Source of the DNA: Lentzea tibetensis
GTDB taxonomy: Bacteria > Actinomycetota > Actinomycetes > Mycobacteriales > Pseudonocardiaceae
DNA: 64,000 nucleotides
NCBI RefSeq assembly: GCF_007845675.1
Contig: NZ_VOBR01000011.1
Coordinates: 1-64,000 of the forward strand
Direction of reading: 5' to 3'
In this document: in pieces, positions 22,001 to 61,854 of the stretch
Position numbering within the stretch: position 1 is the stretch's first letter
How the letters are laid out: each line of letters opens with the position of its first letter
The notes under the pieces: model-generated
What the model saw: only the letters and a program-made list of their open reading frames with translations
Database searches by the model: none
Told to the model about the DNA's origin: nothing
Made by a program: the position numbers and the translations under genes

Positions 22001-22631
22001 GGTCGTGCCGATCGCGATGGCGCTCGAGTGGTTCACCGCGGTGTCGACGGTGGTCGAGGACGTCAAGGTGCTGCGGAAGATCCGGCTGGACAACTTCCAC
22101 GCCGACGGCGACCGGGTGAAGGTCAGTCGCGCTGACGGCCGCCTGGAGATCACCGGGCACTACCGCGCGAGGATCGGCACCCGCCAGGAACCGCGCACGT
22201 GGCAGGAGCCCGGCGATCTCCAGCCGGTCGGATCGGACGTCTACGACGGCCACACCCTCTTCCACGGACCGAAGTTCCAGGTCATCGAGGAGGTCCACGG
22301 GGTGTCGGACGGCGGCGCGGTCGCGACCGTCACCGGAGCCCGGCAGGCCGGGTGGTGCGGCAAGGTCTGGAACACCGACCCCGCGGCCGTCGACGGCGGG
22401 TTGCAGCTGGCGGTGCTGTGGGCGCGGCACGTGCTCGGCAAGGCGAGCCTGCCGATGAGCGTCGCCGAGTGCCGGACGTACCAGCGCGGTCTGCACCGCG
22501 GGCGGACGCGGTGCGTGCTGACGAAGGTCGGCGTGTGGCAGGACGCGGTCGAGTGCGACATCGCGTTCATCGGCGAGGACGGCACGGTCATCTCCGAGCT
22601 GTTCGGCGTCTCGCTCGTGGCCCGGTCGTAG
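16089..22631 (+). CDS. pfaA: PfaA-like polyunsaturated fatty acid synthase (KS-AT-5xACP-KR-DH)
   Basis: This is a 2180-residue iterative PKS. The KS (1-450) has its active cysteine at residue 203 in TDAACASSLAAL, with histidines in VEAHGTGT and KSQIGHTKSAAG. The malonyl-AT (560-860) has Ser658 in AGHSFGELVALH. Five carrier domains share LEADLGIDSIKRVEIL, with attachment serines at about 992, 1090, 1201, 1312 and 1419, separated by Pro/Ala/Val linkers. The KR (1680-1930) starts at ATGGARGV and has the Ser and Tyr of its catalytic set (FSSISAFAG, DYAMANE). A PKS-type dehydratase ends the protein (His in HPYLEDH, Asp in AVDGGLQLAV). GAGGAG lies 9 bp before ATG 16089. It would extend acyl chains while anchoring growing intermediates on several carriers. 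No phosphopantetheinyl transferase gene is in the window. Confidence 0.94.
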   Translation: MSKRIPVAVVGVSALLPGSSDVDGFWRSVLRGEDQITDVPSSHWLISDYYDADPSAPDKTYGKRGAFLSPVDFDPLAFGMPPNQIPATDTTQLLSLIVAEQVLRDATGGSLSSLDRDKVSVILGTAPLELLATMASRLQRPVWLKALREHGVADAEAVCDSIASHYVPWQEASFPGLLSNVVAGRIANKFDLHGTNCTTDAACASSLAALQAGVNELMLGTSDMVITGGVDTLNDITMYMCFSKTPALSPSGDCKPFSSDADGTILGEGLVMFALKRLADAERDGDHVYAVLKGVGTSSDGRSTAIYAPLPEGQARALRRAYSSAGYGPETVELVEAHGTGTTAGDLAEFTALRTVFSESGRADSQWCALGSVKSQIGHTKSAAGAAGMLKAVLSLHHKVLPPTIKVDAPSPKLDLASSPLYLNTEARPWIRSSAHPRRASVSSFGFGGSNFHLTLEEYVPGHGGRTPWRTHSAPAELVLLSAATPAELVTRAGQVDLAAPLADIARSSQTSFVPTDEARLAVVAKSAAELATKLSLAVSAIASGTTVPGVTYACGDPDPGQVGFLFSGQGSQYVGMGGDLAMEFPAARAVWDSVADVLPVHQYVFPVPVFSADERSAQQTALTATEWAQPALAAASLAQLALLDSLKVSPDAVAGHSFGELVALHTAGSFDSATLVRLARQRGEAMQAAGRAGSMMAVSASHADVLAVVSDVDGVWIANHNAPSQVVVSGTPAGIAAVESHFTAMDVTCRRLDTSTAFHSPLVASATTALASFLGSVAVSPPRISVYGNTDASVYPADPAAIRSRIAGHLAAPVRFVDEIEAMYAAGVRTFVEVGAGSTLTGLVGKILGSRPFVAVSLDRKGQHGVTALFSALGQLAVNGVAADFDALWAHVAPPAEPVESKPRMVKKLSGANYGKPYPPAAPVAVSEVVVPSVRMPDSPVVAPAPVVAAPAAAGPDLEKLVLDVVADKTGYPVEMLAADMDLEADLGIDSIKRVEILATVRRTVPGLPDLEPTDLGKLRTLGEIISRLGGGVPVVPTPAAPLAVVAEPVAAVADLEKLVLDVVADKTGYPAEMLAADMDLEADLGIDSIKRVEILATVRRTVPGLPTLEPTELGKLRTLGEIISRLHGAPPAVSTSGDYPERVTAAAPVAAAPVVVAEIAESLAGLEKLVLDVVADKTGYPAEMLAADMDLEADLGIDSIKRVEILSAVRRAVPGLPEVDPVELGKLRTLGEITDRLGGPSKPAAPVVPAQVTPPVAAPVVAAPVAPVVAAESLAELEKLVLDVVADKTGYPAEMLASDMDLEADLGIDSIKRVEILSAVRRAVPGLPEVDPVELGKLRTLGEITERLGGPSQPAAQSAVAAPVVAAPVAPVVTSEVAESLADLEKLVLDVVADKTGYPAEMLASDMDLEADLGIDSIKRVEILSAVRRAVPGLPEVDPVELGKLRTLGEITERLGSTTAQPSITEQVNTEHISTEQAPSTLVRLAVRTKESDPCGLTLTGLRDGRIVVTDDGRGVAAHVVARLKAAGIDAEKVDQVAAGTHGVIHLGGLKDVRTPQEAREVQRDVFEVARTVAGHVKVFVTVQDTGGDFGISGENPERAWVGGIAGLTRTAAAEWPEASVKAIDCERGRRTSAAIAEAITRELLTGGSTPDIGLSKEGKRTRIEAVAAELAKTRHITQNDVIVATGGARGVTAEALIELARQCRPKLVLLGRTERQERQEDRNTDELKKQLIQQGRTPRQINAELANVKAAREVEETIRRIREAGSEVVYEAVDTRDEAALAKALAKARQLGPITGIVHGAGVIADKAIAEKTDEQFDRVFDTKVGGLRALLDATRNDPIRTLCLFSSISAFAGNPGQCDYAMANEVLNHVAHAHKRPGCVVKSIAWGPWEGGMVNPALAQHFHSQGVPLIPISEGARQFVDEVNSDGDVHVVIAAGEDDEDKPHHGEIQLSARTHPYLEDHDIAGAPVVPIAMALEWFTAVSTVVEDVKVLRKIRLDNFHADGDRVKVSRADGRLEITGHYRARIGTRQEPRTWQEPGDLQPVGSDVYDGHTLFHGPKFQVIEEVHGVSDGGAVATVTGARQAGWCGKVWNTDPAAVDGGLQLAVLWARHVLGKASLPMSVAECRTYQRGLHRGRTRCVLTKVGVWQDAVECDIAFIGEDGTVISELFGVSLVARS
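18955..20460 (+). repeat. Five tandem carrier-domain repeats in pfaA
   Basis: Five copies of an ACP unit with serine codons at 19062, 19356, 19689, 20022 and 20343 give spacings of 294, 333, 333 and 321 bp. The units fall into two groups: copies 1-2 read EILATVRRTVPGLP and copies 3-5 read EILSAVRRAVPGLPEVDP. Copies 4 and 5 share an exact 113-bp identity (19923-20035 and 20244-20356), and their preceding linkers also share a long identical stretch. This indicates recent duplication or gene conversion. Confidence 0.95.
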
Positions 22632-22644: not shown

Positions 22645-25600
22645 ATGCGCTTCGAACCCATCGCGATCGTCGGGCGGGGAGCTGTCCTGCCCGACGCTCG
22701 TGACGCGGACACCTTCTGCGCCAACGTGATCGCCGGCCGGATGAGCATCAGCACGGCCCCCGAGGGACGCTGGAAGGTGCCGCACGGGGTGCCGGAGGGC
22801 ACGTGGGGTGATGTCGGCGGCTACGTGCGGCACTTCGCCGCCGAACAAGGGCTCGACCCGCAGTTCCAGTGGGTCCGCCACGGTGTCGAGGCCGCGCTCG
22901 AGGGACTCGACCGCGGCCGGGCAGGCCTGGTGCTCGGCAACCTGTCGTTCCCCACGGTGGGCATGGCCGACTACGCGGAACGGGTGTGGCGCGGCAACGA
23001 GCGCACCGACCCGCGCAACCGGTTCATGTCCGGGCTGCCCGCGCACCTCACCGGGCTCGACGCGTTCGCGCTGGACGCCGCTTGCGCGTCCAGCCTGTAC
23101 GCGATCAAGCTCGCCTGCGACCGGCTGCACGACCGCACGGCCGACGTCATGGTCGCGGGTGCGGTGAACTGCGCGGACGACCTGTTCATCCACGTCGGCT
23201 TCTCCGCGCTGTCGGCGCTGAGCAAGTCCGGCCGCAGCCGCCCGTTCCACCGCGAGGCGGACGGGCTCGTCCCGGCCGAGGGTGCGGCGTTCGTGTCGCT
23301 GATGCGGCTCGCGGACGTGCGGGACGAAGAGGTGTTCGGCGTGATCCGCGGCGTCGGGCTGTCCAACGACGGACGCGGCTCCGGCATGCTCGTCCCCTCC
23401 GCCGAGGGGCAGATCCGGGCGATGCGCCAGGCGTACCAGATGGCCGGTGTCGCACCGGAAACCGTCGAGCTGCTGGAGTGCCACGCCACCGGCACGCCCG
23501 TCGGCGACGTCGTCGAGGTCACCAGCGCCGCCCAGATCTTCAAGAACCACAAGGGCTTGGCGATCGGTTCGGCGAAGTCGAACGTCGGCCACCTGATCAC
23601 CGCGGCCGGTGTCGCCGGGCTGATCAAGGTGCTGGGCGCCATGAGGAACGGCGTCCGCCCGGCCACGCTCAACGCCGACGACACCATCGACGCGCTCGAC
23701 GGCACCCCGCTGCGGGTGCTCACCGAAGCCGAGGAGTGGATCAAGCCTAAGCGGGCCGCGGTGAGCGCGTTCGGGTTCGGCGGCAACAACGCGCACCTGA
23801 TCGTCGACGCACCGGGCCAGCACCACGGCGCGGTGGAACCGTTGCCGCTCAAGGAACCCGTGGCCATCGTCGCGATCGGCGCCAAGGTCGGCACCGGCGA
23901 CAGCACGCACGACCTGACCCGCGCCCTGTTCACCGGCGAGAAGACCGGCAAGCGCGAGTCCGTCGACGTCGCGCTGCAGGGCCTGCGCATGCCGCCGCTC
24001 GACCTCGCGCAGACGCACGCCCAGCAGCTGCTCGTGCTGGAAACCGCGCGCGAGGTAGCGAGGAACCTGCCGCGCGACCGCACGATGGTGCTCATCGGCA
24101 TGGGCTGCGACGCCGAGGTCGCCCGGTACGGTGCGCGCTGGCGCGCGGCACCCGAGGAGCGCGACGGCGTCGTGCCGAACCTGACCAGCGCGGCCGTCGT
24201 CGGCACCATGCCCAACATCACCGCGAACCGCATCAACGCCGTCCTCGACCTGGCCGGCCCCAGCTTCAGCGTCTCGGCGGAGGAGGCCTCGGGCGTGGTC
24301 GCGCTCGAGCTGGCCGCCCGCGCGATCCGCCACGGCGAGGCGGACGCCGCGGTGGTCGGCGCGGTCGACCTGTCCCACGAACCCGTGCACGAGCAGGCGC
24401 TCGCGGACCTCGGCATCACGCGCGAGTCCGGCGACGCGGCCGTCGTGCTGGTGCTCAAGAAGTTCAGCGACGCCCAGGACGACGAGATCATCGCGCTGCT
24501 CGACGACGCCACCTCCGAGGCCGACCTGATCGTGGGGGACAGGGGCTTCGACCCGAGCATCGTCTGCGGCACCCCGCACGCCGCCAAGGGACTTCTCGCC
24601 GTCGCCACCGCGGCGCTCGCGCTGCGCCACCGCGCCACCCCGCGCACCGGCGCGCCCGCCGACCCCGCGTTCGACGTCGACACGGCGAAGGTCGTCGTGA
24701 AACCGCTGGAGGCAGGCGAGAAGACCGTCCGCCTGCGCCAGCACCGGACGAAGCCGTGGATCGCCGAACGGCCGCCGCGTCTCCGCGTGTACTCCGGCGC
24801 CGACAGGACCGCGGTCATCGACGCACTCGACGCGGGCAGGGAGTCCGGCGAGGGACCGGCCCGGCTCGTGCTGCTCGACGACGACAAGGCCCCCGCGAAG
24901 GCCTGGCTCGAAGGCCGGGCGCTCAAGCCGGAGGGCGCGGCCTTCCGCGCCACCCCGCTCGCGGGCGAGATCGGCTTCGTCTTCACCGGCGGTCTCGCCG
25001 CGTACCCCGGTATGGGCCGCGAGCTGCTGCTGGCGTTCCCGCACCTGCTCGAGCAGATCGAGGCCCGGTCCGGCTCGGTGCGCGACGTGGTGGGCTGGGC
25101 GTTCGAGGGAGCGGACAGCGAGCCGCGCGAGGTGCTCGACCAGATCTGGGGCACCGCACTGCTCAGCCAGGTCCACGCCATGATCACCCGCGACCTGCTC
25201 GGCATCACGCCGAACGCCGCGCTCGGCTACTCGGCGGGCGAGTCGAACGCGCTGGTCGCGCTCGGCGTCTGGACGGACATGCGCAAGCTGCGCGCCGAGA
25301 TGACCTCGTCCGGCATGTTCAGCCGCCAGGTCGCAGGCGAGTTCATGGCCATCAAGCGGGCGTGGGCGCGTCAGGGCGTCGAGGGCACGCGCTGGAAGAA
25401 CTACCTGGTCGGCGTCAGCGCGGACCACGCGCGGAAACGACTGCACGGCGAGCAGGCCGTCCACCTGATCGCGGTCAACTCACCGGACTCGTGCATCATC
25501 GGCGGCGAGGTCACCGCGTGCGAACGCGTGCTGTCCACATTGGACGCCGCGTACACGCTGCCCGTCCCGTACGAGCTGGCCGTGCACACGCCGGAACTCG

Positions 25601-28600
25601 GCGAGGTGCGCAACGAGTGGTGGCGGCTGCACTGCCGCCCCACCACGCCACCGCCGGGCGTCCGGTTCTACAGCTGCGCCACGGACGACTCCTACCTGCC
25701 CACCGCGGAACGCGTCGCGGACGCGCTCACCGCGCAGGCCGTAGGCACGATGGACTTCGCCGGTGCGATCGAGCAGGCCTGGCGCGACGGCGTCCGGATC
25801 TTCGTCGAGCACGGCCCCAAGTCGCTGTGCAGCGACTGGATCCGCCGCACGCTCGGCGACCGCGAGCATCTGGCGGTCGCGCTCGACGCGCAGGACGGGC
25901 GCAGCGTGCGCCAGCTCAGCAGGGTCGCGGCCGAGCTCGTCGCGGCCGGCGTCGACGTCAACACCACCGCACTGCACGACCAGCTCGACTCGGCGGTGCC
26001 CGGCACCGCTGCACAACGGAGCGTGCTCACGCTCCCCGCACATCCACCGGAGGTCAGGTTGTCCAAGACGACCATGGTTCGTCCACCCGTCCTGCCTCCG
26101 GTCACGACCCCGGTGCCGCGACCGTCCCTCCCCGATGCGGTCGCGGCACCGGGCCTTCCCCGAGACGACTCGAAGCCCGGCCCGAAGTTCACCCGCGAGC
26201 AGCTCGAGCACCTCGCCGGCGGCAAGATCTCCGAGCTGTTCGGCTTCATGTTCGAGGCGCAGGACGGTTACGCACGCCAGTGCCGCATGCCGCAGCCGCC
26301 GATGCTGCTGGCCGACCGGGTCACCGGCATCGACGCCGAACCGGGCAGCATGGGCACCGGCACGATCTGGACCGAGACCGACGTGCTGCCGGACGCCTGG
26401 TACCTCGACAGCACCGGGCGCATGCCGCCGGGCATCCTGATCGAGTCCGGCCAGGCCGACCTGCTGCTGATCAGCTGGCTCGGCGCGGACCTGCTCAACA
26501 AGGGCGAGCGCGTCTACCGGTTGCTCGGCTGCGAGCTGACCTTCCACGGCAGCCCGCCCGAGCCCGGCGAGACGCTGCGCTACCAGATCGAGATCGACGG
26601 GCACGCCGAGCTCAACGGCATCCGGTTGTTCTTCTTCCACTACGACTGCTACGTCGGCGACGAGCTGCGCCTGTCCGTCCGAAAAGGACAGGCCGGGTTC
26701 TTCACCGACCAGGAGCTCGCGGCCACCACCGGCGTCATCTGGGATCCCGAGCTCGAACGGCCGGAAGGCCCGTGCGAGGCACCGGTCGTGGTCACCGGGC
26801 AGCGGAGCTTCGACGCCGAGCAGGTCCGCGCGTTCGCCGATGGCCGTCCGTACGACTGCTTCGGGCCGCAGTGGGACCTGACGCGGGCGCACATCCGCAC
26901 GCCGCGCATCGACGACGGCCGGATGCTGTTCCTCGACGAGGTCACCGACTTCGACGTCAAGGGCGGGCCGTGGCAGCGCGGCTACCTCAAGGCGGAGACG
27001 AAGGTCGAGCCCGACGAGTGGTTCTTCGACGGCCACTTCAAGAACGACCCGTGCATGCCGGGCACCCTGATGTTCCAGGGCTGCCTGCAGGCGATGTCGT
27101 TCTACCTGGCGGGCTGCGGCTTCACGATCGGCAACGACGCGTGGCGCTTCGAGCCGGTGCCCGGCGAGGGCTACGACATGCGCTGCCGCGGCCAGGTCAC
27201 GCCCGACAGCCGCAACCTGAGCTACGAGGTGTTCGTCTCCGAGCTCGTCGCGGGCCCGATCCCGACGCTGCACGCGGACGTGCTGTGCACTGTGGACGGT
27301 GTGAAGGCGTTCCACGCCAAGCGCGTCGGCCTGCGGCTGGTGCCTGCCTGGCCGCTCGACCAGTGGCGCACCCGCGAGCTCGCGAACCACGTCGAGACCG
27401 GCGCGGTCGCCGAGGCCGGTGGCGTCCGGTTCGACTACGCGGCGCTGCTCGCGTGCGCCTGGGGCAAGCCGTCCGACGCGTTCGGCGAGCTGTACGCGCG
27501 GTTCGACAGCCACCGCAAGGTCGCCCGGCTGCCGGGAGCGCCCTACCACTTCATGAGCAGGATCGCGTCGGTCGACGGCGCGATCGGCGGCATGGAGGCG
27601 GGCAGCTCGTGCGTCGTCGAGTACGACGTGCCCGCGGATGCCTGGTACTTCGAGCAGAACGGCCAGGCCACGATGCCGCTGGCCGTGCTGATGGAGGTCG
27701 TGCTCCAGCCGTGCGGCTGGCTCGCGTCCTACGTCGGGTGCGCGGTGGAGATCGACAAGGACCTGCTGTTCCGCAACCTCGACGGCAAGGGCACCATCCA
27801 CGGCGAGATCACGCCGGACACGAAGGTCGTCCGCACCACCACGAAGCTCCGCGACATCTCGGTCAACGGTCCGATGATCATCGTCTCGTTCGACGTGCGC
27901 TGCTACGGCGACGACGCGCTGGTCTACGAGCTGGACACGGTGTTCGGGTTCTTCCCGCCGGAGTCGTTCGTCGACCAGCCAGGACTCGGCTGCACGGACG
28001 CCGAACGCGCCGCGCTCGCCCCGAGCGGCCAGGTCGTCGACCTCACCGCGCGTCCAGCGAAGTACTGCGACGGCGAGCTGCGGCTGGCCGGTCCGATGCT
28101 GCTGATGCTCGACCGGGTCACCGGCTACGACCCCACCGGTGGTGCGGCCGGGCTGGGCAGGCTCACCGCGGAGAAGGACGTCGACGCGGGGGAGTGGTTC
28201 TTCAAGGCGCACTTCTTCCAGGATCCCGTGCAGCCCGGCTCGCTCGGCATCGAGGCGCTCTACCAGCTGCTCCAGTTCTACCTGCTGGAACGCGGTGCGG
28301 GCGAAGGGCTGGCGCAGCCGCGGTTCGAGATGATGATGGACAGCGCACCGATGGTGTGGAAGTACCGCGGCCAGGTCGTGCCGTCGCACACCACGATCTC
28401 GTCCGAGCTGGAGATCACCTCGTACGACGCGGAGAACCGGTGCGCGAAGGCCAAGGCGTGGCTGTGGGTGGACGGCAGGCGCATCTACAGCACCGCCGAG
28501 ATCGGAGTGCGGGTGGTCGGTGCGTCCCAGGAGGAGAACTGGCTGCACGACCACCGTCCGACGTGGACGGTGCCGGTCGTGCCGATGATGTCGGTGGTCG

Positions 28601-29595
28601 ACCAGCTGGCCGGTGGTGAGACGGCGTTGCGCGACGTGACGCTGCGGCGCTGGATCCCGGCCGCCGAGCCGCCGCGGATGAAGGTCGAACGTGACGGCTC
28701 GCTGGTGACGTTGCTCGTCTGGCGGGACGCGCAGAACCCGGTCCTGTCCCGGTTCGAACCGGTGGCGACCGCGAAGGTCGTGCCGCGCGGCGCCCGGCCC
28801 GCTCCGTTCGCCGAGCTGCCGAACGCCGAGCCGGTCACGGACTTCTACACCTCGGGCGCGCTGTTCCACGGGCCCGCGTTCCACTACCTGAAGTCGTTGC
28901 GGCGCAGTGCCGGTGGCGCTTCCGGTGTGCTCGACGCGGGTGCCGGCTCGGTGCCGCGCGGCAACCTGCACCAGGGACTGCTGGACGCGGCGACGCACGC
29001 GATCCCGCACGACAGCATGTGGCGCTGGTACCAGGAGATCCCGCGCGACCAGGTCGCGTACCCGCACCGGATCACCAGCTTCGAGCAGTACGAGCCGCTG
29101 CCGTCGTCGGGTGAGGTTCAGGTCGAGGCGCGGTTCGCGGGGTTCGAGAACGGCGATCGGCGGTTCCCGGTCGTGCAGCTGCAGCTCCTGAGCGACGGGC
29201 AGGTGCTCGTCGCGATGCGGCTGGTGGAGGTGCTGATGCCGACCGGTGTGTTCGGCGCGGCGTCGTCCGCCCAGCGCCGGGCGTTCCTGCGCGACCGCGT
29301 CTACGCCGACGGTCTGGGGCTCTCCACCACCGAGGTGGGCACGACCCGGCTGTCCCTCGCGGACGTCGAGCAGTGCGACTGGCTCGTCGGCACCGTCGCC
29401 AGCGCGTACGGACTGCCGGCGGGAGCCAGGGGACGTGACCACCTGGCCCGCATCGCGGTGCAGGACCACGTCGCCAGGTTGCTGCGCGTCCACCCGTCTG
29501 CCGTCCGGGTGGAAGGGCACACCGCACAGGTCGCGGGCGAGACCTACGACGTGCTCGTCACCGAGCACGAGTCGGTGGTCTTCGTCCGCGGCTGA
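22645..29595 (+). CDS. pfaC: PfaC-like PUFA synthase subunit (KS-CLF-AT-DH-DH-DH)
   Basis: This is a 2316-residue protein. The KS has active Cys147 (LDAACASSLYAIK) and the motif LECHATGTPVGD. The chain-length-factor domain (400-680) reads SVSAEEASGVVAL where a KS would have cysteine. A PfaB-like AT has Ser863 in GYSAGESNALVA. Two FabA-type double-hotdog dehydratases follow: His1464 in WFFDGHFKNDPCMPG with partner segment PPGILIESGQADLL, and His1856 in WFFKAHFFQDPVQPG with partner LMEVVLQPCGWL. A third, PKS-like dehydratase has LHDHRPTW, LFHGPAFHYL and LLDAATH. The last 110 residues are unassigned. Myxobacterial Pfa3 has KS-CLF-AT-DH-DH followed by an acyltransferase; here a dehydratase replaces it. 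It starts 13 bp after pfaA and acts with PfaA and PfaD. Confidence 0.92.
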   Translation: MRFEPIAIVGRGAVLPDARDADTFCANVIAGRMSISTAPEGRWKVPHGVPEGTWGDVGGYVRHFAAEQGLDPQFQWVRHGVEAALEGLDRGRAGLVLGNLSFPTVGMADYAERVWRGNERTDPRNRFMSGLPAHLTGLDAFALDAACASSLYAIKLACDRLHDRTADVMVAGAVNCADDLFIHVGFSALSALSKSGRSRPFHREADGLVPAEGAAFVSLMRLADVRDEEVFGVIRGVGLSNDGRGSGMLVPSAEGQIRAMRQAYQMAGVAPETVELLECHATGTPVGDVVEVTSAAQIFKNHKGLAIGSAKSNVGHLITAAGVAGLIKVLGAMRNGVRPATLNADDTIDALDGTPLRVLTEAEEWIKPKRAAVSAFGFGGNNAHLIVDAPGQHHGAVEPLPLKEPVAIVAIGAKVGTGDSTHDLTRALFTGEKTGKRESVDVALQGLRMPPLDLAQTHAQQLLVLETAREVARNLPRDRTMVLIGMGCDAEVARYGARWRAAPEERDGVVPNLTSAAVVGTMPNITANRINAVLDLAGPSFSVSAEEASGVVALELAARAIRHGEADAAVVGAVDLSHEPVHEQALADLGITRESGDAAVVLVLKKFSDAQDDEIIALLDDATSEADLIVGDRGFDPSIVCGTPHAAKGLLAVATAALALRHRATPRTGAPADPAFDVDTAKVVVKPLEAGEKTVRLRQHRTKPWIAERPPRLRVYSGADRTAVIDALDAGRESGEGPARLVLLDDDKAPAKAWLEGRALKPEGAAFRATPLAGEIGFVFTGGLAAYPGMGRELLLAFPHLLEQIEARSGSVRDVVGWAFEGADSEPREVLDQIWGTALLSQVHAMITRDLLGITPNAALGYSAGESNALVALGVWTDMRKLRAEMTSSGMFSRQVAGEFMAIKRAWARQGVEGTRWKNYLVGVSADHARKRLHGEQAVHLIAVNSPDSCIIGGEVTACERVLSTLDAAYTLPVPYELAVHTPELGEVRNEWWRLHCRPTTPPPGVRFYSCATDDSYLPTAERVADALTAQAVGTMDFAGAIEQAWRDGVRIFVEHGPKSLCSDWIRRTLGDREHLAVALDAQDGRSVRQLSRVAAELVAAGVDVNTTALHDQLDSAVPGTAAQRSVLTLPAHPPEVRLSKTTMVRPPVLPPVTTPVPRPSLPDAVAAPGLPRDDSKPGPKFTREQLEHLAGGKISELFGFMFEAQDGYARQCRMPQPPMLLADRVTGIDAEPGSMGTGTIWTETDVLPDAWYLDSTGRMPPGILIESGQADLLLISWLGADLLNKGERVYRLLGCELTFHGSPPEPGETLRYQIEIDGHAELNGIRLFFFHYDCYVGDELRLSVRKGQAGFFTDQELAATTGVIWDPELERPEGPCEAPVVVTGQRSFDAEQVRAFADGRPYDCFGPQWDLTRAHIRTPRIDDGRMLFLDEVTDFDVKGGPWQRGYLKAETKVEPDEWFFDGHFKNDPCMPGTLMFQGCLQAMSFYLAGCGFTIGNDAWRFEPVPGEGYDMRCRGQVTPDSRNLSYEVFVSELVAGPIPTLHADVLCTVDGVKAFHAKRVGLRLVPAWPLDQWRTRELANHVETGAVAEAGGVRFDYAALLACAWGKPSDAFGELYARFDSHRKVARLPGAPYHFMSRIASVDGAIGGMEAGSSCVVEYDVPADAWYFEQNGQATMPLAVLMEVVLQPCGWLASYVGCAVEIDKDLLFRNLDGKGTIHGEITPDTKVVRTTTKLRDISVNGPMIIVSFDVRCYGDDALVYELDTVFGFFPPESFVDQPGLGCTDAERAALAPSGQVVDLTARPAKYCDGELRLAGPMLLMLDRVTGYDPTGGAAGLGRLTAEKDVDAGEWFFKAHFFQDPVQPGSLGIEALYQLLQFYLLERGAGEGLAQPRFEMMMDSAPMVWKYRGQVVPSHTTISSELEITSYDAENRCAKAKAWLWVDGRRIYSTAEIGVRVVGASQEENWLHDHRPTWTVPVVPMMSVVDQLAGGETALRDVTLRRWIPAAEPPRMKVERDGSLVTLLVWRDAQNPVLSRFEPVATAKVVPRGARPAPFAELPNAEPVTDFYTSGALFHGPAFHYLKSLRRSAGGASGVLDAGAGSVPRGNLHQGLLDAATHAIPHDSMWRWYQEIPRDQVAYPHRITSFEQYEPLPSSGEVQVEARFAGFENGDRRFPVVQLQLLSDGQVLVAMRLVEVLMPTGVFGAASSAQRRAFLRDRVYADGLGLSTTEVGTTRLSLADVEQCDWLVGTVASAYGLPAGARGRDHLARIAVQDHVARLLRVHPSAVRVEGHTAQVAGETYDVLVTEHESVVFVRG

Positions 29596-29654: not shown

Positions 29655-30950
29655 CTAGCGGAAGAGGCCGCGGATCACGGTGGCGACGAGTGCGGGGTGG
29701 AACAGGGTCGCCGGGTGGTCGACCATCTGGGAGGTCCGGATGAACCGGCGGTAGACGTGCGGGTTGCCGGGGATGACGGCGAACAGCTTCTCGCCGTACC
29801 ACCGCTGCGCGCGGACGTACCAGGGCAGATGTCCCTGGTGCCAGCCGAGGTCGGTGGTCGTCGCGGTCAGCCACGGCACGCCGACCACGCGGGCGAGCTT
29901 GCGCTGGAACCGCCGCTCGATGTTCTGCTTGGGCAGCAGCTTGCCGAGGATCTCGGCGCCGAGCGCGGCGAGCGTCAGGCCGTGGCCGTAGACCGGGTTC
30001 ATGGCGCACACCGTGTCGCCCAGTGCGATCAGGCCGCGCGGCCAGTCGCGCACCTTGTCGAACCGGTTCCACTTGCTGCCCAGGTTCGCGAACCGGTAGA
30101 TCGACGAGGCGGGCTCGGCGTTCTTGACGATGTCCGCGACGTCGCGGCACTCCAGCGTGCCCGCGTACTCGAGGAAGCCGTGTTCGTCGGTCGGCGCGAT
30201 GTCGCCGCCCGCGCCGAAGAGCGTCACGAACCAACGCTTGCCGTCCACGGTGGACACCGCGCCGCCGCGCTTCGTGTGCGGGGCGTGGGTGATCTCGTAG
30301 GCGGTGAGCCAGTCGAACTTCAGGTCCTCGTCGACGTGGTAGAGCCGCGAGGTGTAGGCGAGGTGGCCGTCGACGACCTGCTGAGGCGGGCAGTGCACGC
30401 CGAGCGGTTTGAGCCAGTCGACGAGCTTGCTCGTGCGGCCGGACGCCACCACGACGAGGTCCGCGTGCTCGGTGAAGTCGGCGCCGGCGTCGCGGTGCCG
30501 CCCGTGGATGCCGACGACGCGGCCGTTCTCGTGCACCAGCCCGTCGACGCGCACCCCGCCCACGACGGACACCGACGGGATCTCGAGCACCCGGCGCCGG
30601 ACGGTGCGTTCCAGCGTCACGCGGGTGACGGACTGGACCTCGATCCCGATCGCGTCGCGCGGCGCCCAGCCCGCGGGCGCACGGCTCTTGAACTCGCTGC
30701 CGACGTCGGCGACGACCGCGCCGAGCTCGGACAGTTCTGCTCTCAGACCGGGGAACAGGTCCTCGAGCACCTGGGCGCCGCGGGCGAGCAACGCGTGCGG
30801 GTGATGTGCCTGAGGCACGCCGCTGCGGTGCGCGGTGTCAGCGTCGATGTGATCGCGCTCGACGAGCGTGACGCGGCCGCAGTGTTCGGACAGGACACGT
30901 GCGGCGAGCAGTCCGGCGAACCCTGCGCCGACGACGATTGCGTGCTTCAT
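29655..30950 (-). CDS. MonCI-like flavin-dependent monooxygenase (probable epoxidase)
   Basis: This is a 431-residue flavoprotein monooxygenase. The N-terminal FAD motif is IVVGAGFAGLLAARVLSE; then VTLVERD and the stretch RSGVPQAHHPHALLARGAQV, which resembles polyether epoxidases such as MonCI and squalene-epoxidase-like proteins. The second FAD motif is GLIALGDTVCAMNPVYGHGL. These enzymes use reduced FAD and oxygen to epoxidise C=C bonds in polyene chains. ATG 30950 gives a clean Rossmann start; the open frame runs much further upstream but antisense to the FAAL gene. It is divergent from the FAAL operon and convergent to pfaC, inside the lipid locus. Substrate and epoxidase activity are inferred from family resemblance and context. 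Confidence 0.82.
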   Translation of the reverse strand: MKHAIVVGAGFAGLLAARVLSEHCGRVTLVERDHIDADTAHRSGVPQAHHPHALLARGAQVLEDLFPGLRAELSELGAVVADVGSEFKSRAPAGWAPRDAIGIEVQSVTRVTLERTVRRRVLEIPSVSVVGGVRVDGLVHENGRVVGIHGRHRDAGADFTEHADLVVVASGRTSKLVDWLKPLGVHCPPQQVVDGHLAYTSRLYHVDEDLKFDWLTAYEITHAPHTKRGGAVSTVDGKRWFVTLFGAGGDIAPTDEHGFLEYAGTLECRDVADIVKNAEPASSIYRFANLGSKWNRFDKVRDWPRGLIALGDTVCAMNPVYGHGLTLAALGAEILGKLLPKQNIERRFQRKLARVVGVPWLTATTTDLGWHQGHLPWYVRAQRWYGEKLFAVIPGNPHVYRRFIRTSQMVDHPATLFHPALVATVIRGLFR

Positions 30951-31082: not shown

Positions 31083-32783
31083 GTGACCGACTCGATCCTC
31101 TCGTCGTTCCAACGACTTCGCGCCGAAGACCCCGACCGGCGGATGTTCACGTTCGTCGACGACAAGGGCAACGACGAGGCCACGCTCACCGCGCGTCAGC
31201 TCGGCGCGGCCGCGGACCGGGTGGCGGAGTCGTTGCGCGACCGGGGTTTCACTCCGGGTGACCGCGCGATCCTCGTGTACCCGCCGTCGCTGGACTTCGT
31301 CGAGGCCTTCCTCGGCTGCCTCGCGGCCGGCGTCATCCCGGTGCCGGTGTACCCGCCGAACCCGTTCAAGCTCAAGAAGGACCTCGCGACGTTCAACGCC
31401 ATCGCGGACAACTGCGGCGCGCGCGGCATCCTGACCAACGGCACGTACGACCGTTCCCGCACCGCCGGCTCCGTGACCAGCTTCTTCAGCTCGGACACAC
31501 CCCGCTGGCCGAGCCTGCCCTGGTACCGCACGGACAAGCTGCGTGCGTCCGGCAAGGAAGTCGTTTGGTGCCAACCAGATTCCGCGACGCCCGCCTTCCT
31601 GCAGTACACCTCCGGCTCGACGTCCGCGCCGAAGGGCGTGATCATCAGCCACGGCAACCTCGCCTGCGAGGTGACCGCCAACGCGGCCGACCTCGGGCTC
31701 GGACCGCAGGCGCGCGGCGTGTTCTGGGTGCCGCAGTACCACGATCTCGGCCTCATCAGCGTCATCCTGTCGACCATCGCGGGCAACGGCCGGACCACCC
31801 TCATGTCGCCGCTGACGTTCCTGCAACGGCCGAGCGTGTGGTTCGACGTCCTGTCCCGCACCCGCGCCACGCACACCGCCGCGCCGAACTTCGCGTTCGA
31901 GCTCGCGGTGCGCAAGACGACGCCGCAGCAGCGGGCGGGCTGGGACCTCTCCGCGCTGCGGGCCGTCATGTCCGCCGCCGAGCCGATCCGTCCTTCCACG
32001 ATGGACAACTTCTTCGCCGCGTTCGAGGAGACCGGGATCGACCGGGACGTGTTCTTCCCCGCGTACGGGCTCGCCGAGCACACGGTCAGCGTGTCGATGG
32101 GTGGACGTTCCACTTTGCACATCGACAAAACAGCGCTCGAGTCGGGCAAGGTGCTGCCGGCCGCCGACGGCGTCCCGTACGTCGGGTGCGGCCGGATCAC
32201 CAAGCCGGACGCGGTGGTGCGCATCGTCGACCCCGTGTCGCTGCGCGAGTGCGGGCCCGACGAGATCGGTGAGATCTGGGTCGACTCGCCCACCAAGGGA
32301 CTCGGCTACTGGGGCATGCCGGAGGAGACCGAGGCCGCGTTCCACGCCCGGATCGCCGGCTCGCCGGACGACGTCGAGTACCTGCGCACCGGCGACCTCG
32401 GGTTCTTCCACGACGGCGAGCTGTTCATCACCGGGCGCAACAAGGACCTGATCATCGTGCGCGGCCGCAACCTGTACCCGGCGGACATCGAGGACAGCGT
32501 CCGCGACTGCCACCCGCTCATCCGGCCCGGCGGGCTGGCGGCGTTCGCCGTCGAGGTCGACGCGAGCGAGGAACTGGTGCTGTTCGTGGAGACCAAGGAC
32601 AAGGTCGGCCTCGACGAGCGCGACGCGATCGTCGAGTCGGTGCGGCGCCGGGTCTACGAGGAGCACCAGCTCGGCTGCCACGCGGTCGTGGTCGGCAAGC
32701 AGGGCATCGTGCGCAAGACGACGAGCGGCAAAGTCCGCCGCTCGGCGTGCAAGCAGGCATTTCTGGCTGGGGAGGCGGCATGA
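31083..32783 (+). CDS. Fatty acyl-AMP ligase (FAAL)
   Basis: This is a 566-residue adenylate-forming enzyme. The P-loop is LQYTSGSTSAPKGV; further core motifs are YGLAEHTVSVS, YLRTGDLGFFHDGELFITGR and the lysine-bearing C-terminus GIVRKTTSGKVRR. The PVPVYPPNP motif, the HDLGL segment (VPQYHDLGLISVIL) and the length match FAALs rather than acyl-CoA ligases. FAALs turn a free fatty acid into acyl-AMP and pass it to a carrier protein. The stop overlaps the ATG of the five-domain gene (ATGA), and that protein contains its own carrier domain, so the likely acceptor is encoded in cis. GTG 31083 has GGGAGG 8-9 bp upstream. Confidence 0.93.
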   Translation: MTDSILSSFQRLRAEDPDRRMFTFVDDKGNDEATLTARQLGAAADRVAESLRDRGFTPGDRAILVYPPSLDFVEAFLGCLAAGVIPVPVYPPNPFKLKKDLATFNAIADNCGARGILTNGTYDRSRTAGSVTSFFSSDTPRWPSLPWYRTDKLRASGKEVVWCQPDSATPAFLQYTSGSTSAPKGVIISHGNLACEVTANAADLGLGPQARGVFWVPQYHDLGLISVILSTIAGNGRTTLMSPLTFLQRPSVWFDVLSRTRATHTAAPNFAFELAVRKTTPQQRAGWDLSALRAVMSAAEPIRPSTMDNFFAAFEETGIDRDVFFPAYGLAEHTVSVSMGGRSTLHIDKTALESGKVLPAADGVPYVGCGRITKPDAVVRIVDPVSLRECGPDEIGEIWVDSPTKGLGYWGMPEETEAAFHARIAGSPDDVEYLRTGDLGFFHDGELFITGRNKDLIIVRGRNLYPADIEDSVRDCHPLIRPGGLAAFAVEVDASEELVLFVETKDKVGLDERDAIVESVRRRVYEEHQLGCHAVVVGKQGIVRKTTSGKVRRSACKQAFLAGEAA

Positions 32784-35700
32784 GGTTCGCGACGGGACCG
32801 GACGATCCGAGGCTCGACGAGGTCGATCCGTCGTTCCAGTCGGTGATCGAGGCGCTGGGACCGCTGGTCGCCGCGTCGAAGATGACCAGGCGCCGGGTGT
32901 TCCACCGCAACGCGACCGGCGCGCGCGGCGTGCTGCGCGTCGTCGACGCTCCCGACCTGCCGCCGCACTCGTTCTTCCGGCCGGGCAGGCGGTTCGACGT
33001 CACCGCCCGGTACAGCAACAGCATCGAGAACGACGACATCGCGCCCGCCATCCGCGGCGTGACGCTCCGGCTCGACGGCGGCGAGCTCGACCTGTCGCTG
33101 AACACCGGTGACCGGTTCTTCGCGCGGTCGGCCGAGGTGTTCCTGCGCTACTTCCGCGGTGAGGGCGCCGCGCTGGTCGAGGAGATCCCCGGTTTCCGCG
33201 AGACGGCGTGGAACCTGTACCGGCACGCGACTTCCTACGCCTCGTACCACTACTACTCGCAGGTGCCGTCGGGGTTCGTCAGCCTCGACGGTTCGCGGTG
33301 GCTGATCCGCTACCGGCTGGTGCCGGTCGGCGTGCCGGACGCCGGGTTCGTGGATCCGGGCGACCGGTTCCTGCCGCCCGAGCCGCCCGGCGAGCTCACC
33401 CGGTTCGACGCGGACGACCCGCGCCCGCGGACGTTCCTGCACGAGGAACTGCGGGAACGGTTGTCCGCGGGCGCGGTGTCCGCGGTGCTCCAGGTGCAGC
33501 TGCACCCGGTGAGCTCGTCGGACGACGAGAACGAGGCCCCGCTGGACTGCACGCGGGCGTGGAACCTGCCGTGGCGGGACCTGGCCACGCTGGAGCTCGA
33601 CTCGATGCTCGACAACGACGCGATCGAGGGCCTGCGGTTCAACCACGCCAACACGCCCGCCGACCTGGGTGTCGTGCTCGCCACGTCACCGTCGGAGCCC
33701 GCTTCGCTGAACCACCTGCGGGCGCTGGTCTACCGGCTGACCGCGGCGGCGCGCATCGGCGACACCTCGGTGCCCGAGTGCCGTTCCGTGGTGGTCATCG
33801 GCGCCGGCCCGGCCGGGCTGAGCTTCGCGCGGGAACTGGAGCGCGCCGGGCATCGGGCGATCGTGCTGGAGAAGCTGCCCGAGGTCGGCGGCAAGTGCGA
33901 GTCGATCGACATCGACGACCGCGCGTACGACCTGGGCGGCCACGTCTGCACGACGCAGTACGAGAACGTCGCGCGGCTGGCCGTCGAGCTGGGCGTACCG
34001 ACCGAGGACACGACGCCGCACCGGGTGCACGACATCGAGTCCGGCTCGTCCGTGCCGCAGAGCACCGAGTTCTTCCAGCGCGCGACCTTCAGCCGCTACC
34101 AGGAGCTGCGCGACGCGGAGTTCCCGCTGATCGCCTCCGCCGGACTCGCGCACTCGGCACGGGCGCTGGCCGAGCCGGTGACGTCGTGGCTCTCCTCGCA
34201 CGGCCTGACGTCCATGGCCGCTTCGCTGGGCACCGGGTACACCGCGGCCGGCTACGGGTACCTGGCGGGTGACCTGCCCGCGCTGTACTTCGTGAAGTAC
34301 GCCGAGATGACCGGCCTGCTGTCCGCGCGTCCCGAACTGCTGGGACATCCGGGCAGCTTCACGATCGTCGGCGGCTTCAAGGGCCTGTGGGAGAAGGTCG
34401 CCGCGAGTCTGTCCGACGTCCGGTGCGGGGTGAACATCACCTGCATCGCACGGGATCCCGATCGTCCGCGCAACGGCGTGCTGGTGCGCACCGAGCAGGG
34501 TGACGTGGTCGCCGACGACCTCGTGCTGACCGTGCCGATCTCCGAGCTGGTGGACGTGCTCGACGCGACGCCCGACGAGCTGGACGTCGCGGGCCGGGTG
34601 CGGTCGATGGACTACTACACGACCGTCGTCTCCGCCTCTGGCCTGCCGTCGTCGGCGTTCTTCCTGGTGGACAACGTTCCCGGGCACGCGGTGTCGTTCC
34701 ACCACCGGTACCCCGAGAGCGACGTCTACGCCGTGTACTCGTACGGCTCGCCGGAGCTGGACGGTGACGACATCATCGCCGGGTTCCGCGCCGACGTGGA
34801 GCGCATGGGCGGCACGATGGGGGAGGTGCACACGCAGCGGCGGTGGAAGTTCCTGCCGTACTTCGGCAGCGCCGACATCCGCGACGGCGTGTACGACCGG
34901 ATCGAGCACCTGCAGGGCCGCAACCACACGTTCCACGCGGGCAGCCTGCCGGCCTACGAGCTGGTCGAGTGCAACGTCGCGTACAGCAGGCAGCTGGTGC
35001 GGCAGCACTTCGGCGGTGCGGACGAGGACGACGTGTTCGGCCACGCGGCCGTGATCACCACGGAGGAACGCCCGGAGCCCACGGTGGACGCGCTGCGCAC
35101 GTGGCTGGTGTCGCACATCGCCGACGAGCTGCGCCTTCCCGCGACCTCGGTCTCCGCTTCGTCGCGTTTGGACAGTTTCGCGCTGGAGTCCATGTCGGTA
35201 GCCGCTCTGCAGTCGGGTCTCTCGGACTGGCTCGGCTACCGGATCCCGCACACGTTGTTCCTGGAGCAGCCGACGATCGACGCGGTGGCCCGGCACCTGG
35301 CCGTGGAGGAGGACGCGCCGCCGGTCGCGCCCACCAGGTCGTTGCTGCTGGGCCTGACGTCGGCGCGTCCGTTCTTCTGCGTCGGCGGCGCTCTCGGTGC
35401 CGCGTACTACCTGCTGAAGCTGGCGCGTGACGTCGGTTCGTCGCGGCCGTTCTACGGGCTGCGCGCGCCGGGCTACGACGGGTTGGAGGAGCCGCTCGAC
35501 ACCGTGGAGGAGCTGGCCGCCCGGTACGTCGAGGAGATCCGCCTGGTCCAGCCGTACGGCCCGTACCTGCTGGGCGGCCACTCGTTCGGCGGCGTCGTCG
35601 CGTACGAGATGGGCAGGCAGCTGCGCGCGGCGGGCGAGGAGGTCACCCGTGTTGTGCTGCTCGATGCTTATGTTCCGGTTGCTGGGCAGGATCTGCCGCC

Positions 35701-37420
35701 GGTCGACGACGCGGCGGCGATCGAGGAACTGCTGACGATGAACCGCCTGGCGTTCTCCTCGGGCGGCCCGGCAGGCGTGGAGATCGACCCGTCGCTCGCG
35801 ATCTCGGAGCAGAAGGAACGTCTAGGCCGCTTCCTGGGCGCCAACGGCTCACTCCCGGTCGACGACCACATCAGCAACATGCTGCGCGTGTACCAGGCCA
35901 ACCTGGAGGCCAACGTCAAGTACCAGCCGCTCCCGTCCGACCTGAACGTCACCCTGATGAAGGCCACCGACGGCTTCCCGCCGGTCATGAAGCCGCACCG
36001 CAACACCGCTCTGGCGCTCGACGACCCCGCGAACGGCTGGGAGCACGTCAGTTTGGGCACGCTGTCCGTTGTGGACATTCCCGGCGACCACTTCACCATG
36101 TTCGTCGAGCCGCACGACGAGATCATCGCCGGCGCTGTCCACACGTGCCTGGCGGAGGAGGAGCGCCGCTCGGCGAACACCGTGGGCGCCAAGGCGATCG
36201 CGTTCAACCCGGACGACCCGGCGTTCCTCAACGACCCGTACCCGTTCTACCGCGCCCTGCGCGACAGCGACCCGATCCACTACGAGGACACCCTCGGCGG
36301 CTGGATGCTGACCCGCTACGAGGACGTGTCCCAGCTCCTGCGCGACCCGCGGGTGATCCGCCCGCCGGTGACCGACTACCTGTTCGCCTCGGTGCCGCAG
36401 TCGCAGCGCGACGAGATGGCCGCGTTCGAACGCCAGCTCGCCGGCTCACTGCCGTTCACGAACGCGCCGTACCACACCCGCCTGCGCAGCCTGCTGGGCA
36501 AGGCTTTCACCCCGCGCCGCGTCCGCGCGATGCGCGCCAGGATCGCCGAGATCACCGACTCACTGCTCGACGTGCTGGACGTGTGCGACGGCGGCGACCT
36601 GATGAAGCTGGTCGCGTACCCGCTGCCGTCGACCGTGATCATGGAGTTCATCGGCGTGCCGGAGGAAGACCACGCGCGGATGACCTACCTGGCCACCGAG
36701 ATGATGGCCCTGCTCGGCGCCCAGTACTCGAAGGACGCACCCCTGATCGCCCGCAAGGCGCACGCGGCGATGAACGAGTTCGTGTCCTACATGACGTCGC
36801 TCATTTCTTTGCGTCGTAGTTCGCCTCGCGAGGACCTGTTGTCGACGTTGATCGGCGGGGAGCTCACCGAGGAAGAGCTGATCCTCAACTGCATGGCGCT
36901 GCTCAACGCGGGTCTCGAGACGACCGCCAACCTGCTCGGTAACGGCACTCTGGCGCTGCTGCGCAACCCCGCGCAGTACTCGTTGCTGCGGAACGACCCT
37001 CAGCTCGCCGAGTCGGCGGCCGAGGAGTTGCTGCGCTACGACGGTCCCACCCCGATCCTCACGCCGCAGCTGGCCGACGCCGACATCTCGATCGGCGGCC
37101 AACTGATCAAGAAGGGTCAGCTGATCTACCCCATGGTGGGTGCCGCGAACCGTGATCCCGTGCGGTTCCCGGAGCCCGACCAGCTCGACGTCACGCGCCC
37201 GCCCAACGGACAGTTGAGCTTCGGTGTCGGCATCCACTTCTGCGTCGGTGCGGCGCTGGCTCGGATGGAGGCGCAGGAGTACTTCACCCGGCTCACGGCT
37301 CGGTTCCCGCACCTCCGGTTGGATCCGTCCATGCCGGCTCCGGTGTTCCGCGACGACCCGTTGTTGCGGGGTTTGGCACACCTGCACGTCCGCACCTCCG
37401 TATGTCCCAAGGACAATTGA
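32780..37420 (+). CDS. Five-domain lipid-tailoring fusion: catalase-like, PAI-like flavin, ACP, TE, P450
   Basis: This is a 1546-residue fusion. Residues 1-335 are catalase-like: distal His42 in VFHRNATGARG, Asn108 in LDLSLNTGDRFF and a proximal RxxxY (Arg314-Tyr318, LRALVY), like small catalase-related hydroperoxide enzymes. Residues 336-760 form an FAD domain (VVVIGAGPAGLSFARELE, VGGKCES, GYGYLAGDLPALYFVKYAEM, HLQGRNHTFHAGSL) resembling Propionibacterium polyenoic fatty acid isomerase. A carrier (767-840) has Ser804 in DSFALESMSVAAL. A thioesterase has Ser935 in LLGGHSFGGVVAYE. A P450 (1137-1546) has the I-helix AGLETT, a C-terminal LRYDG and heme ligand Cys1488 in FGVGIHFCVGA. ATG 32780 overlaps the FAAL stop. 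Inferred role: polyunsaturated acyl chains loaded by FAAL are isomerised, oxidised and released on one chain. Confidence 0.9.
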   Translation: MRFATGPDDPRLDEVDPSFQSVIEALGPLVAASKMTRRRVFHRNATGARGVLRVVDAPDLPPHSFFRPGRRFDVTARYSNSIENDDIAPAIRGVTLRLDGGELDLSLNTGDRFFARSAEVFLRYFRGEGAALVEEIPGFRETAWNLYRHATSYASYHYYSQVPSGFVSLDGSRWLIRYRLVPVGVPDAGFVDPGDRFLPPEPPGELTRFDADDPRPRTFLHEELRERLSAGAVSAVLQVQLHPVSSSDDENEAPLDCTRAWNLPWRDLATLELDSMLDNDAIEGLRFNHANTPADLGVVLATSPSEPASLNHLRALVYRLTAAARIGDTSVPECRSVVVIGAGPAGLSFARELERAGHRAIVLEKLPEVGGKCESIDIDDRAYDLGGHVCTTQYENVARLAVELGVPTEDTTPHRVHDIESGSSVPQSTEFFQRATFSRYQELRDAEFPLIASAGLAHSARALAEPVTSWLSSHGLTSMAASLGTGYTAAGYGYLAGDLPALYFVKYAEMTGLLSARPELLGHPGSFTIVGGFKGLWEKVAASLSDVRCGVNITCIARDPDRPRNGVLVRTEQGDVVADDLVLTVPISELVDVLDATPDELDVAGRVRSMDYYTTVVSASGLPSSAFFLVDNVPGHAVSFHHRYPESDVYAVYSYGSPELDGDDIIAGFRADVERMGGTMGEVHTQRRWKFLPYFGSADIRDGVYDRIEHLQGRNHTFHAGSLPAYELVECNVAYSRQLVRQHFGGADEDDVFGHAAVITTEERPEPTVDALRTWLVSHIADELRLPATSVSASSRLDSFALESMSVAALQSGLSDWLGYRIPHTLFLEQPTIDAVARHLAVEEDAPPVAPTRSLLLGLTSARPFFCVGGALGAAYYLLKLARDVGSSRPFYGLRAPGYDGLEEPLDTVEELAARYVEEIRLVQPYGPYLLGGHSFGGVVAYEMGRQLRAAGEEVTRVVLLDAYVPVAGQDLPPVDDAAAIEELLTMNRLAFSSGGPAGVEIDPSLAISEQKERLGRFLGANGSLPVDDHISNMLRVYQANLEANVKYQPLPSDLNVTLMKATDGFPPVMKPHRNTALALDDPANGWEHVSLGTLSVVDIPGDHFTMFVEPHDEIIAGAVHTCLAEEERRSANTVGAKAIAFNPDDPAFLNDPYPFYRALRDSDPIHYEDTLGGWMLTRYEDVSQLLRDPRVIRPPVTDYLFASVPQSQRDEMAAFERQLAGSLPFTNAPYHTRLRSLLGKAFTPRRVRAMRARIAEITDSLLDVLDVCDGGDLMKLVAYPLPSTVIMEFIGVPEEDHARMTYLATEMMALLGAQYSKDAPLIARKAHAAMNEFVSYMTSLISLRRSSPREDLLSTLIGGELTEEELILNCMALLNAGLETTANLLGNGTLALLRNPAQYSLLRNDPQLAESAAEELLRYDGPTPILTPQLADADISIGGQLIKKGQLIYPMVGAANRDPVRFPEPDQLDVTRPPNGQLSFGVGIHFCVGAALARMEAQEYFTRLTARFPHLRLDPSMPAPVFRDDPLLRGLAHLHVRTSVCPKDN

Positions 37421-37498: not shown

Positions 37499-38368
37499 AT
37501 GACGCCACGGCGCTCCACGGCCCGCAGCCGTGACATCGGACTGGAACTGCTCGCCATTCGCGAGAAAGCTGGGTACGACGGCATCGGGCTCGCCAACCGG
37601 CTCGGGTGGGATCAGAGCAAGGTGTCCCGGATCGAGGGTGGCAAGCAGGCTGTCGATGAGGTCGACTTGATCAGCTGGCTCACGAGTTGCGACGTGAAGT
37701 ACCCGCAGCTGCGGCAACTGGTCAACGACAACCGGGAGGCCACAAGGGACACCTGGGTGGTGCCCCACTCGCCGACCTCGGGCCGGGCTCTCGTCGCTGA
37801 GGAACGAGCCGCCAAGACCATCACCCACTACGCGTGCGTCCTGATTCCCGGCCTGCTGCAGACTCGCGCGTATGCCCAGGCCACGATCGGTCATTGGCAC
37901 CAGGACGAGAAGACGATCCTGTTGACGGTCGAGCAGCGGATGACTCGCCAAGAGGTACTGCCCGGGGAACGCGCGCCCAAGGTCGTCTTCTACATCGAGG
38001 AGGGTGTCCTGCTGCGAACCGCCAGCGATGCCGAGATCGGGGAGGAGCAGCTGCTGCATCTGATGTTCATGGCGGACTGGAAGAAGGTCAGCATCCGCAT
38101 CCTGCCGACATCCGCGGGAGTGCACTCGGCGGGGCAGGGCTCGTTCACCTTCATCGAACGGCGCGACGGGATATTGGTGGCGCGGATCGACACCCGAGCA
38201 ACCGCGCTGGTCATGGAGAACGAGGTGCACATCGCCGCCTACCAGGAGACGATCAAGGAACTGGACGGTCTCGCTATGTCCGAGGGACAATCGCGGAAGT
38301 ACATCGCCAGCCTCGTTGCTGGTCCGCGAGAGGAGTCCGACGACGATGGCCGAGGCGGAGTGGCGTAA
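37499..38368 (+). CDS. XRE-family regulator with DUF5753-type domain
   Basis: This is a 289-residue regulator. An N-terminal helix-turn-helix (GLANRLGWDQSKVSRIEGGK) is followed by the ligand-binding-like domain common to Scr1-type actinobacterial regulators, with LIPGLLQTRAYAQATIG, RMTRQEVL and FTFIERRDG. These proteins usually pair with a small DUF397 protein and govern development or secondary metabolism. Here the DUF397 gene overlaps its 3' end. It follows the lipid operon and a strong hairpin, so regulation of the lipid locus is possible but not shown. The start is ATG 37499. Confidence 0.9.
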   Translation: MTPRRSTARSRDIGLELLAIREKAGYDGIGLANRLGWDQSKVSRIEGGKQAVDEVDLISWLTSCDVKYPQLRQLVNDNREATRDTWVVPHSPTSGRALVAEERAAKTITHYACVLIPGLLQTRAYAQATIGHWHQDEKTILLTVEQRMTRQEVLPGERAPKVVFYIEEGVLLRTASDAEIGEEQLLHLMFMADWKKVSIRILPTSAGVHSAGQGSFTFIERRDGILVARIDTRATALVMENEVHIAAYQETIKELDGLAMSEGQSRKYIASLVAGPREESDDDGRGGVA

Positions 38369-54754: not shown

Positions 54755-54763
54755 AAGGACTTC

Positions 54764-61854
<7,091 letters not shown>

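Follow-up and report, generated by a model that had tools for sequence, protein, structure and literature searches.

A catalase-related heme domain fused to a fatty acid isomerase-like flavin domain in a five-domain megaenzyme beside a predicted PUFA synthase cluster of Lentzea tibetensis

Introduction

Catalase-related enzymes of oxylipin formation are best known as partners of lipoxygenases. The AOS-8R-lipoxygenase of the coral Plexaura homomalla (PDB 1u5u, 3dy5), which acts on polyunsaturated fatty acids, carries a catalase-related heme domain at the N-terminus of the fusion, and the Lentzea tibetensis protein described here resembles it in this domain and in its heme ligands; however, the coral fusion partner is a lipoxygenase, whereas the Lentzea partner is a flavin isomerase-like domain followed by a carrier. 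The flavin domain in turn is matched over its full length by the P. acnes polyunsaturated fatty acid isomerase (PAI, PDB 2b9w), which is described as an isomerase with an ionic mechanism (PMC13076199), but PAI was solved as a stand-alone chain of 424 residues, whereas the Lentzea domain is joined to a heme domain and to a carrier.

The setting of the gene recalls two further systems. Secondary lipid synthases of the Pfa type, including types H, L, M and Q in actinobacteria, share homologues of pfaA, pfaC and pfaD with the present locus, and their products were given as uncharacterised in 2011 (Shulse and Allen 2011, PMC3098273). Section 7 of that paper mentions no tailoring gene of the heme, flavin or FAAL kind, and its main text does not contain the terms P450, amine oxidase or fatty-acid-AMP ligase. 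Chitinimines and dioxanopeptins, the products of PUFA synthase-PKS-NRPS hybrids, are similar in that a PUFA synthase feeds a decorated specialised lipid (PMC13291983, PMC12964715), but their tail is joined to a peptide, and P450, catalase and amine oxidase go unmentioned in both papers. The terms searched for were also absent from PMC12254105 and from the part of the review PMC11719350 that was covered. Among the matches listed for the open-access literature (titles and abstract starts, with most subscription journals outside the scope), none described a fusion of a catalase-related domain with a fatty-acid isomerase or a carrier, or such a gene next to a PUFA synthase. The megaenzyme combines known domains in a new way and within a conserved setting, which makes a specific pathway testable.

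Results

The window, which is the whole stretch of 64,000 nucleotides analysed here, contains a frame at 32780..37420 (+) in which 1546 codons are open without an internal stop; the ORF spans 32747..37420 (+) and encodes 1557 aa if a GTG start is used, while the ATG at 32780 gives 1546 aa. This ATG overlaps the stop codon of the upstream ligase gene by four bases (ATGA). From the N- to the C-terminus, the protein consists of heme, flavin, carrier (ACP), thioesterase and P450 domains. The first-pass annotation had proposed five domains in one frame of 1546 residues, and the Pfam and PDB matches within the uninterrupted frame uphold this; stop codons between the domains are found neither here nor in the frames of nine relatives. 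All five domains also lie in a single open frame in Lentzea sp. NBRC 105346 and Amycolatopsis xylanica, indicating that their joining is more than chance. Identity over residues 1-1125 is 83% and 72%, respectively, and dN/dS per domain (Nei-Gojobori count) ranges from 0.11 to 0.29 against Lentzea sp. NBRC 105346 and from 0.19 to 0.51 against A. xylanica. In both comparisons the ratio peaks in the heme domain (0.29 and 0.51), and dN is lower than dS in all five domains. A frame artefact was rejected, as the open frame is kept in relatives and dN stays below dS. An AF2 model of a four-domain stretch, built with 10 sequences, reached a pLDDT of 49.6.

The heme domain (32780..33760, +; residues 1-327) is catalase-related and allene oxide synthase (AOS)-like. 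In the phmmer search it matched the coral AOS (1u5u) with an E-value of 3.6e-31, versus 0.099 for the best true catalase (4qol) and 0.12 for a mycobacterial catalase-related protein. A Pfam search at E 1e-3 gave no Catalase match, so that the domain is visible only against the coral enzyme. An N-terminal catalase proper was therefore rejected (PDB E 0.1; no Pfam Catalase match at 1e-3), and the catalase-like N-terminus of the first-pass annotation stands in the sense that its closest relative in both sequence and fold is the catalase-related coral AOS. The AF2 model of this domain had a pLDDT of 79.8, and Foldseek placed 1u5u first (E 5.4e-21, TM 0.73, rmsd 6.4), with the best catalase at 4.6e-14. 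Chanoclavine synthase (9jdc) took rank 4 in the same search and provides a precedent for biosynthetic chemistry on a catalase fold.

The heme-pocket residues of coral AOS are given as R64, H67, R102, N137, Y353 and R360 (PMC5617202). In the phmmer alignment, R39, H42, R77, N108 and Y318 of the Lentzea protein correspond to the first five of these, and R325 was matched by spacing to R360, which lies beyond the HMMER alignment. Across an alignment of 10 rows, made up of nine fusion proteins and one stand-alone Lentzea heme domain, R39, H42, R77, N108, R314, Y318 and R325 are identical throughout, and the same heme-pocket columns are invariant in a separate alignment of the tenth fusion (G285). 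The distal Thr66 of coral AOS is replaced by Phe41 in all 10 rows, which means that the chemistry of the coral AOS cannot be taken for granted. The Lys107 of the coral enzyme, which is thought to anchor the substrate carboxylate (PMC5617202), is likewise absent, its position being taken by I, V, E, G or F in every row. This loss would be in keeping with a substrate bound as a carrier thioester instead of a free acid. Lys60, the other candidate carboxylate anchor, has residue 35 as its aligned counterpart, and seven of the 10 rows carry Lys or Arg at the neighbouring residue 34; this anchor may thus be kept in effect, which counts against the loss of an acid-binding site. All of the residues singled out beforehand are present (H42, N108, R314xxxY318, S804, S935 in GHSFGG and C1488 in FGVGIHFC), but the wider claim that all key residues are in place does not extend to the coral Thr66 position.

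The FAD domain (33779..35044, +; residues ~334-755) resembles PAI, which phmmer matched in the PDB with E 1.7e-32 over 411 residues, versus 3e-14 for the next flavin enzyme. Pfam assigns Amino_oxidase to the same region (1.6e-21), and an amine oxidase proper was rejected because PAI is the closest of the flavin enzymes matched in the PDB; the earlier reading as an isomerase-like domain is borne out by the same gap. Arg88 of PAI contacts the acid carboxylate. Arg415 stands at this place, which is R in 5 of 9 rows, including all three five-domain proteins, and Q or Y in the other 4, so retention of this arginine does not favour a thioester substrate.

The acyl carrier domain (35090..35314, +; Pfam PP-binding 3.6e-08, residues 775-840) carries Ser804, which is present in 9/9 rows having this domain, and the thioesterase (35360..36139, +; Pfam Thioesterase 1.9e-28, residues 864-1121) carries Ser935 and His1104, with Ser and His found in 7/7 rows having it. 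The cytochrome P450 (36200..37417, +; Pfam p450 2.4e-23, residues 1216-1511; PDB 8yhn 9.5e-75) has Cys1488 in FGVGIHFC and the I-helix acid-Thr pair in AGLETT.

The gene overlapping the megaenzyme (31083..32783, +) is fatty-acyl-AMP-ligase (FAAL)-like, with a Pfam AMP-binding match of 7.4e-60; none of the NCBIfam FAAL models was over its cut-off, and the best four scored 340-383 bits against cut-offs of at least 775. Further upstream, pfaD, the PUFA synthase enoyl reductase (14432..16075, +; TIGR02814 631 bits, cut-off 449), is followed by pfaA with KS-AT-ACP(x5)-KR-DH organisation (16089..22631, +; TIGR02813 omega_3_PfaA 1810 bits, cut-off 1010) and by a pfaC-like gene (22645..29595, +), for which Pfam indicates KS, AT and two FabA-type dehydratases, the FabA domains falling in two stretches, besides a presumed chain-length-factor domain. 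The AT of this gene scored 65 bits with pfaB_fam, under the cut-off of 144. Since pfaD and pfaA exceed their curated cut-offs and PfaC-type dehydratases are present, the three genes classify as a predicted PUFA (Pfa) synthase cluster. On the opposite strand (29655..30950, -) lies a flavin monooxygenase that resembles the polyether epoxidases Lsd18/LasC and MonCI (PDB 8wvb, E 5.6e-54). Among the ten fusion loci described below, it is found at the cluster in the two Lentzea only, and its relatives sit elsewhere in several fusion genomes, so that it is an accessory at most; with such an epoxidase-like gene inside the PUFA cluster, an epoxidised product becomes more likely in Lentzea.

Downstream, an HTH_31/DUF5753 regulator was identified by Pfam (37499..38368, +), which scored 105.8 bits with the Sco1979 family, under the cut-off of 350. 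NRPS genes (51719-61855, +; A-T-C, then two A, two C and two T domains) begin about 13 kb 3' of the megaenzyme, beyond ABC transport genes and a beta-lactamase-family gene. They were rejected as members of the cluster, as the ~13 kb in between hold transport, signalling and other genes, and Lentzea sp. NBRC 105346 has other genes after its megaenzyme.

Heme-flavin fusions were found at 10 loci from six actinobacterial genera, each in one open frame; the loci were pooled from a family sample and a named genome collection, with duplicates removed. Besides the window, they comprise Lentzea sp. NBRC 105346, Amycolatopsis xylanica, A. antarctica, Saccharopolyspora elongata, S. spinosa, G285 (a genome of the same group, g25, as both Saccharopolyspora), Pseudonocardia sp. 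ICBG1293, Streptomonospora mangrovi and Actinorugispora endophytica. The family sample of 298 genomes had a match in 22 and a fusion in 6, and a pattern-based scan of the named collection gave at least 11 loci, 8 with the fusion. In a phylum sample of 396 genomes the heme domain occurred in the window's genome only; therefore, the distribution outside the family rests on one non-exhaustive pattern scan. A search of viral contigs gave no relative.

A FAAL-like gene lies directly upstream at all ten fusion loci, and PUFA synthase genes adjoin eight. The thioesterase is fused in 8/10 and the P450 in 3/10, and the gene of the Streptomonospora protein, which has no fused thioesterase, is followed by a separate acyl-CoA-thioesterase-type gene. 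The first-pass annotation had suggested looking for the same five-domain order in other genomes, and it was found at three of the ten loci, the window included, which indicates that heme-flavin-ACP is the conserved unit. In a flavin-domain tree (27 rows, quick method, deeper forks weak), the three five-domain proteins formed one clade (SH-aLRT 100), and all ten fusions were contained in a 13-member group (support 94) that also holds three flavin domains without a heme domain. The best single PfaA match scored 907 bits in A. xylanica and 849 bits in Pseudonocardia. The Pseudonocardia score is itself below the cut-off of 1010, although pfaD, pfaA and pfaC are adjacent at that locus. In the Streptomonospora and Actinorugispora genomes, whose fusions are the two without a thioesterase, the PfaA model scored no higher than 331 and 224 bits, respectively; a PUFA synthase is therefore not necessarily the source of the substrate.

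The 298 genomes held 27 places, namely 6 fusions, 19 flavin domains without a full heme domain (one of them a short fragment) and 2 heme-only loci. A pfaD hit within 20 kb was found for 6/6 fusions, 1/19 flavin-only and 0/2 heme-only loci (hypergeometric 4e-5 for 6/6 vs 1/19, with relatedness ignored), with at most five candidates scored per genome and with a pfaD family that also takes in other polyketide reductases and has a hit in 82 of the 298 genomes. These counts indicate that the fusion, not either domain alone, goes with the PUFA synthase.

Lipoxygenases were searched with the profile PF00305, with one known-positive genome included as a control. The profile was matched in one of the ten fusion genomes, that of A. 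xylanica, on a contig other than that of the fusion, and in none of the other nine, including the window's genome; it was matched in 2 of 249 genomes of the order and in none of 14 named controls. With so few lipoxygenases in fusion genomes, hydroperoxides from a lipoxygenase are probably not what the heme domain acts on, in contrast to the coral enzymes. The P450 is missing from seven of the ten fusion proteins and thus cannot be the general peroxide supplier, and the flavin domain is the sole other redox domain common to all ten. The window's genome also has two An_peroxidase-family places over the cut-off (three matches), which are a possible other source of hydroperoxide; the one frame inspected looks secreted.

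Discussion

We propose that the protein is a megaenzyme that is loaded in trans and tailors what a secondary PUFA synthase produces, giving an oxygenated, partly conjugated polyene acid, and we consider this reading probable on the basis of domain content and gene neighbourhood. Judging from their families, PfaA, PfaC and PfaD would build a cis-polyunsaturated acyl chain. A FAAL adenylates an acid and then passes it to a carrier, and the overlap of the two genes suggests that the FAAL-like ligase would hand the adenylated acid to Ser804 of the built-in carrier. By homology with the P. acnes isomerase, the FAD domain may then shift a skipped double bond into conjugation via a flavin-stabilised cation, and the catalase-fold heme domain may use peroxide for a rearrangement or an epoxidation that involves no lipoxygenase. 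The P450 of Lentzea and A. xylanica would add further oxygen, and the thioesterase would free the oxygenated, partly conjugated polyene acid, a putative bacterial oxylipin from an assembly line. The first-pass annotation had already pictured double bonds being moved and oxygen being added on a tethered chain, an inference with which the FAAL-like gene and the PUFA synthase in the cluster agree, as expected for a carrier-tethered PUFA. More generally, the PUFA-synthase neighbourhood suggests an assembly line for oxygenated polyunsaturated lipids. The conserved heme-flavin unit links the catalase-related oxylipin enzymes with secondary PUFA synthases in genomes that mostly gave no lipoxygenase match, and it gives a testable route to bacterial oxylipin-like metabolites that could show the purpose of some PUFA synthases. 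In addition, it would allow PUFAs to be oxidised with regiocontrol while tethered to a carrier.

The absence of another redox domain common to all fusions leads to the tentative possibility, to which we give a rather low probability, that flavin and heme work as a couple, in which the FAD would oxidise the bis-allylic chain, O2 would re-oxidise the flavin to give H2O2 or a lipid hydroperoxide, and the heme domain would serve as a peroxygenase or form an epoxide or allene oxide. Heme and flavin are the only redox pair at 10/10 fusion loci, with the P450 at 3/10, and the scarcity of the lipoxygenase profile in these genomes points the same way; however, the ionic mechanism of the P. acnes isomerase speaks against it, no residue among those examined marks an oxidase, and the An_peroxidase-family genes are a possible rival source of hydroperoxide. 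In its fullest form, this would amount to a lipoxygenase-free oxylipin route, with a fused flavin isomerase/oxidase and a coral-type heme acting as a couple on a carrier-thioester PUFA fed by the PUFA synthase, and with a peroxide or cation made by the flavin turned into an epoxide or allene oxide by the heme, which we regard as unlikely. If the hydroperoxide were instead supplied from outside the protein, the heme domain could be a true allene oxide synthase or a hydroperoxide lyase; the coral AOS is its closest solved relative and the heme ligands are kept, but the only lipoxygenase in a fusion genome lies on another contig, Thr66 is replaced by Phe and Lys107 is absent, making this reading doubtful as well.

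Readings in which the heme domain has no part in product formation appear far less probable. The AOS of the coral C. imbricata, an enzyme of the same kind, is reported to break down H2O2 (PMC5617202), and this activity, together with the catalase fold, would allow a protective catalase in cis that removes H2O2 arising from P450 uncoupling or from the flavin. This is very unlikely, since the sequence is far from working catalases, the domain is kept at the seven loci without a fused P450, and flavin-P450 paralogues exist without it. The whole could also be an ordinary set of lipid-tailoring domains with a vestigial heme domain, as a S. elongata paralogue without nearly all of this domain and the highest dN/dS of the five domains might suggest; but even there dN remains lower than dS, and the heme-pocket residues are kept in 10/10 rows, which leaves this reading highly improbable. 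The tailoring of a tethered PUFA-synthase product is the reading that we prefer.

Several paralogues show the same domains in other arrangements. The window's genome has a second megaenzyme (G000:C2:90255-93905), with a FAAL-like gene and the order flavin-ACP-thioesterase-P450, which is 56% identical to the first over residues 334-1539 but differs in having no heme domain and no pfa match within its 20 kb; an aminotransferase and an aldehyde dehydrogenase are encoded nearby. In a Lentzea relative (L048), a flavin-ACP-thioesterase-P450 version adjoins its own pfaD-pfaA. Two Lentzea genomes have a stand-alone heme-domain gene (L010 8896-10667, L065 9225-10987), located directly 3' of a lone dehydratase stretch that resembles the C-terminal DH of pfaA. 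The Saccharopolyspora elongata paralogue (L063 9884-12346; also L054) starts with about 30 residues of the N-terminal end of the heme domain, directly followed by the flavin domain, a pattern that resembles an in-frame loss of the heme domain. At four loci of family relatives (L023, L024, L026 and L031, in genomes of genus g16), a stand-alone isomerase-like flavin gene adjoins a response-regulator-like gene (MLRVLAVDDEAP...), and a similar regulator is found near the flavin-P450 paralogue of the window's genome (L009 17422-18324).
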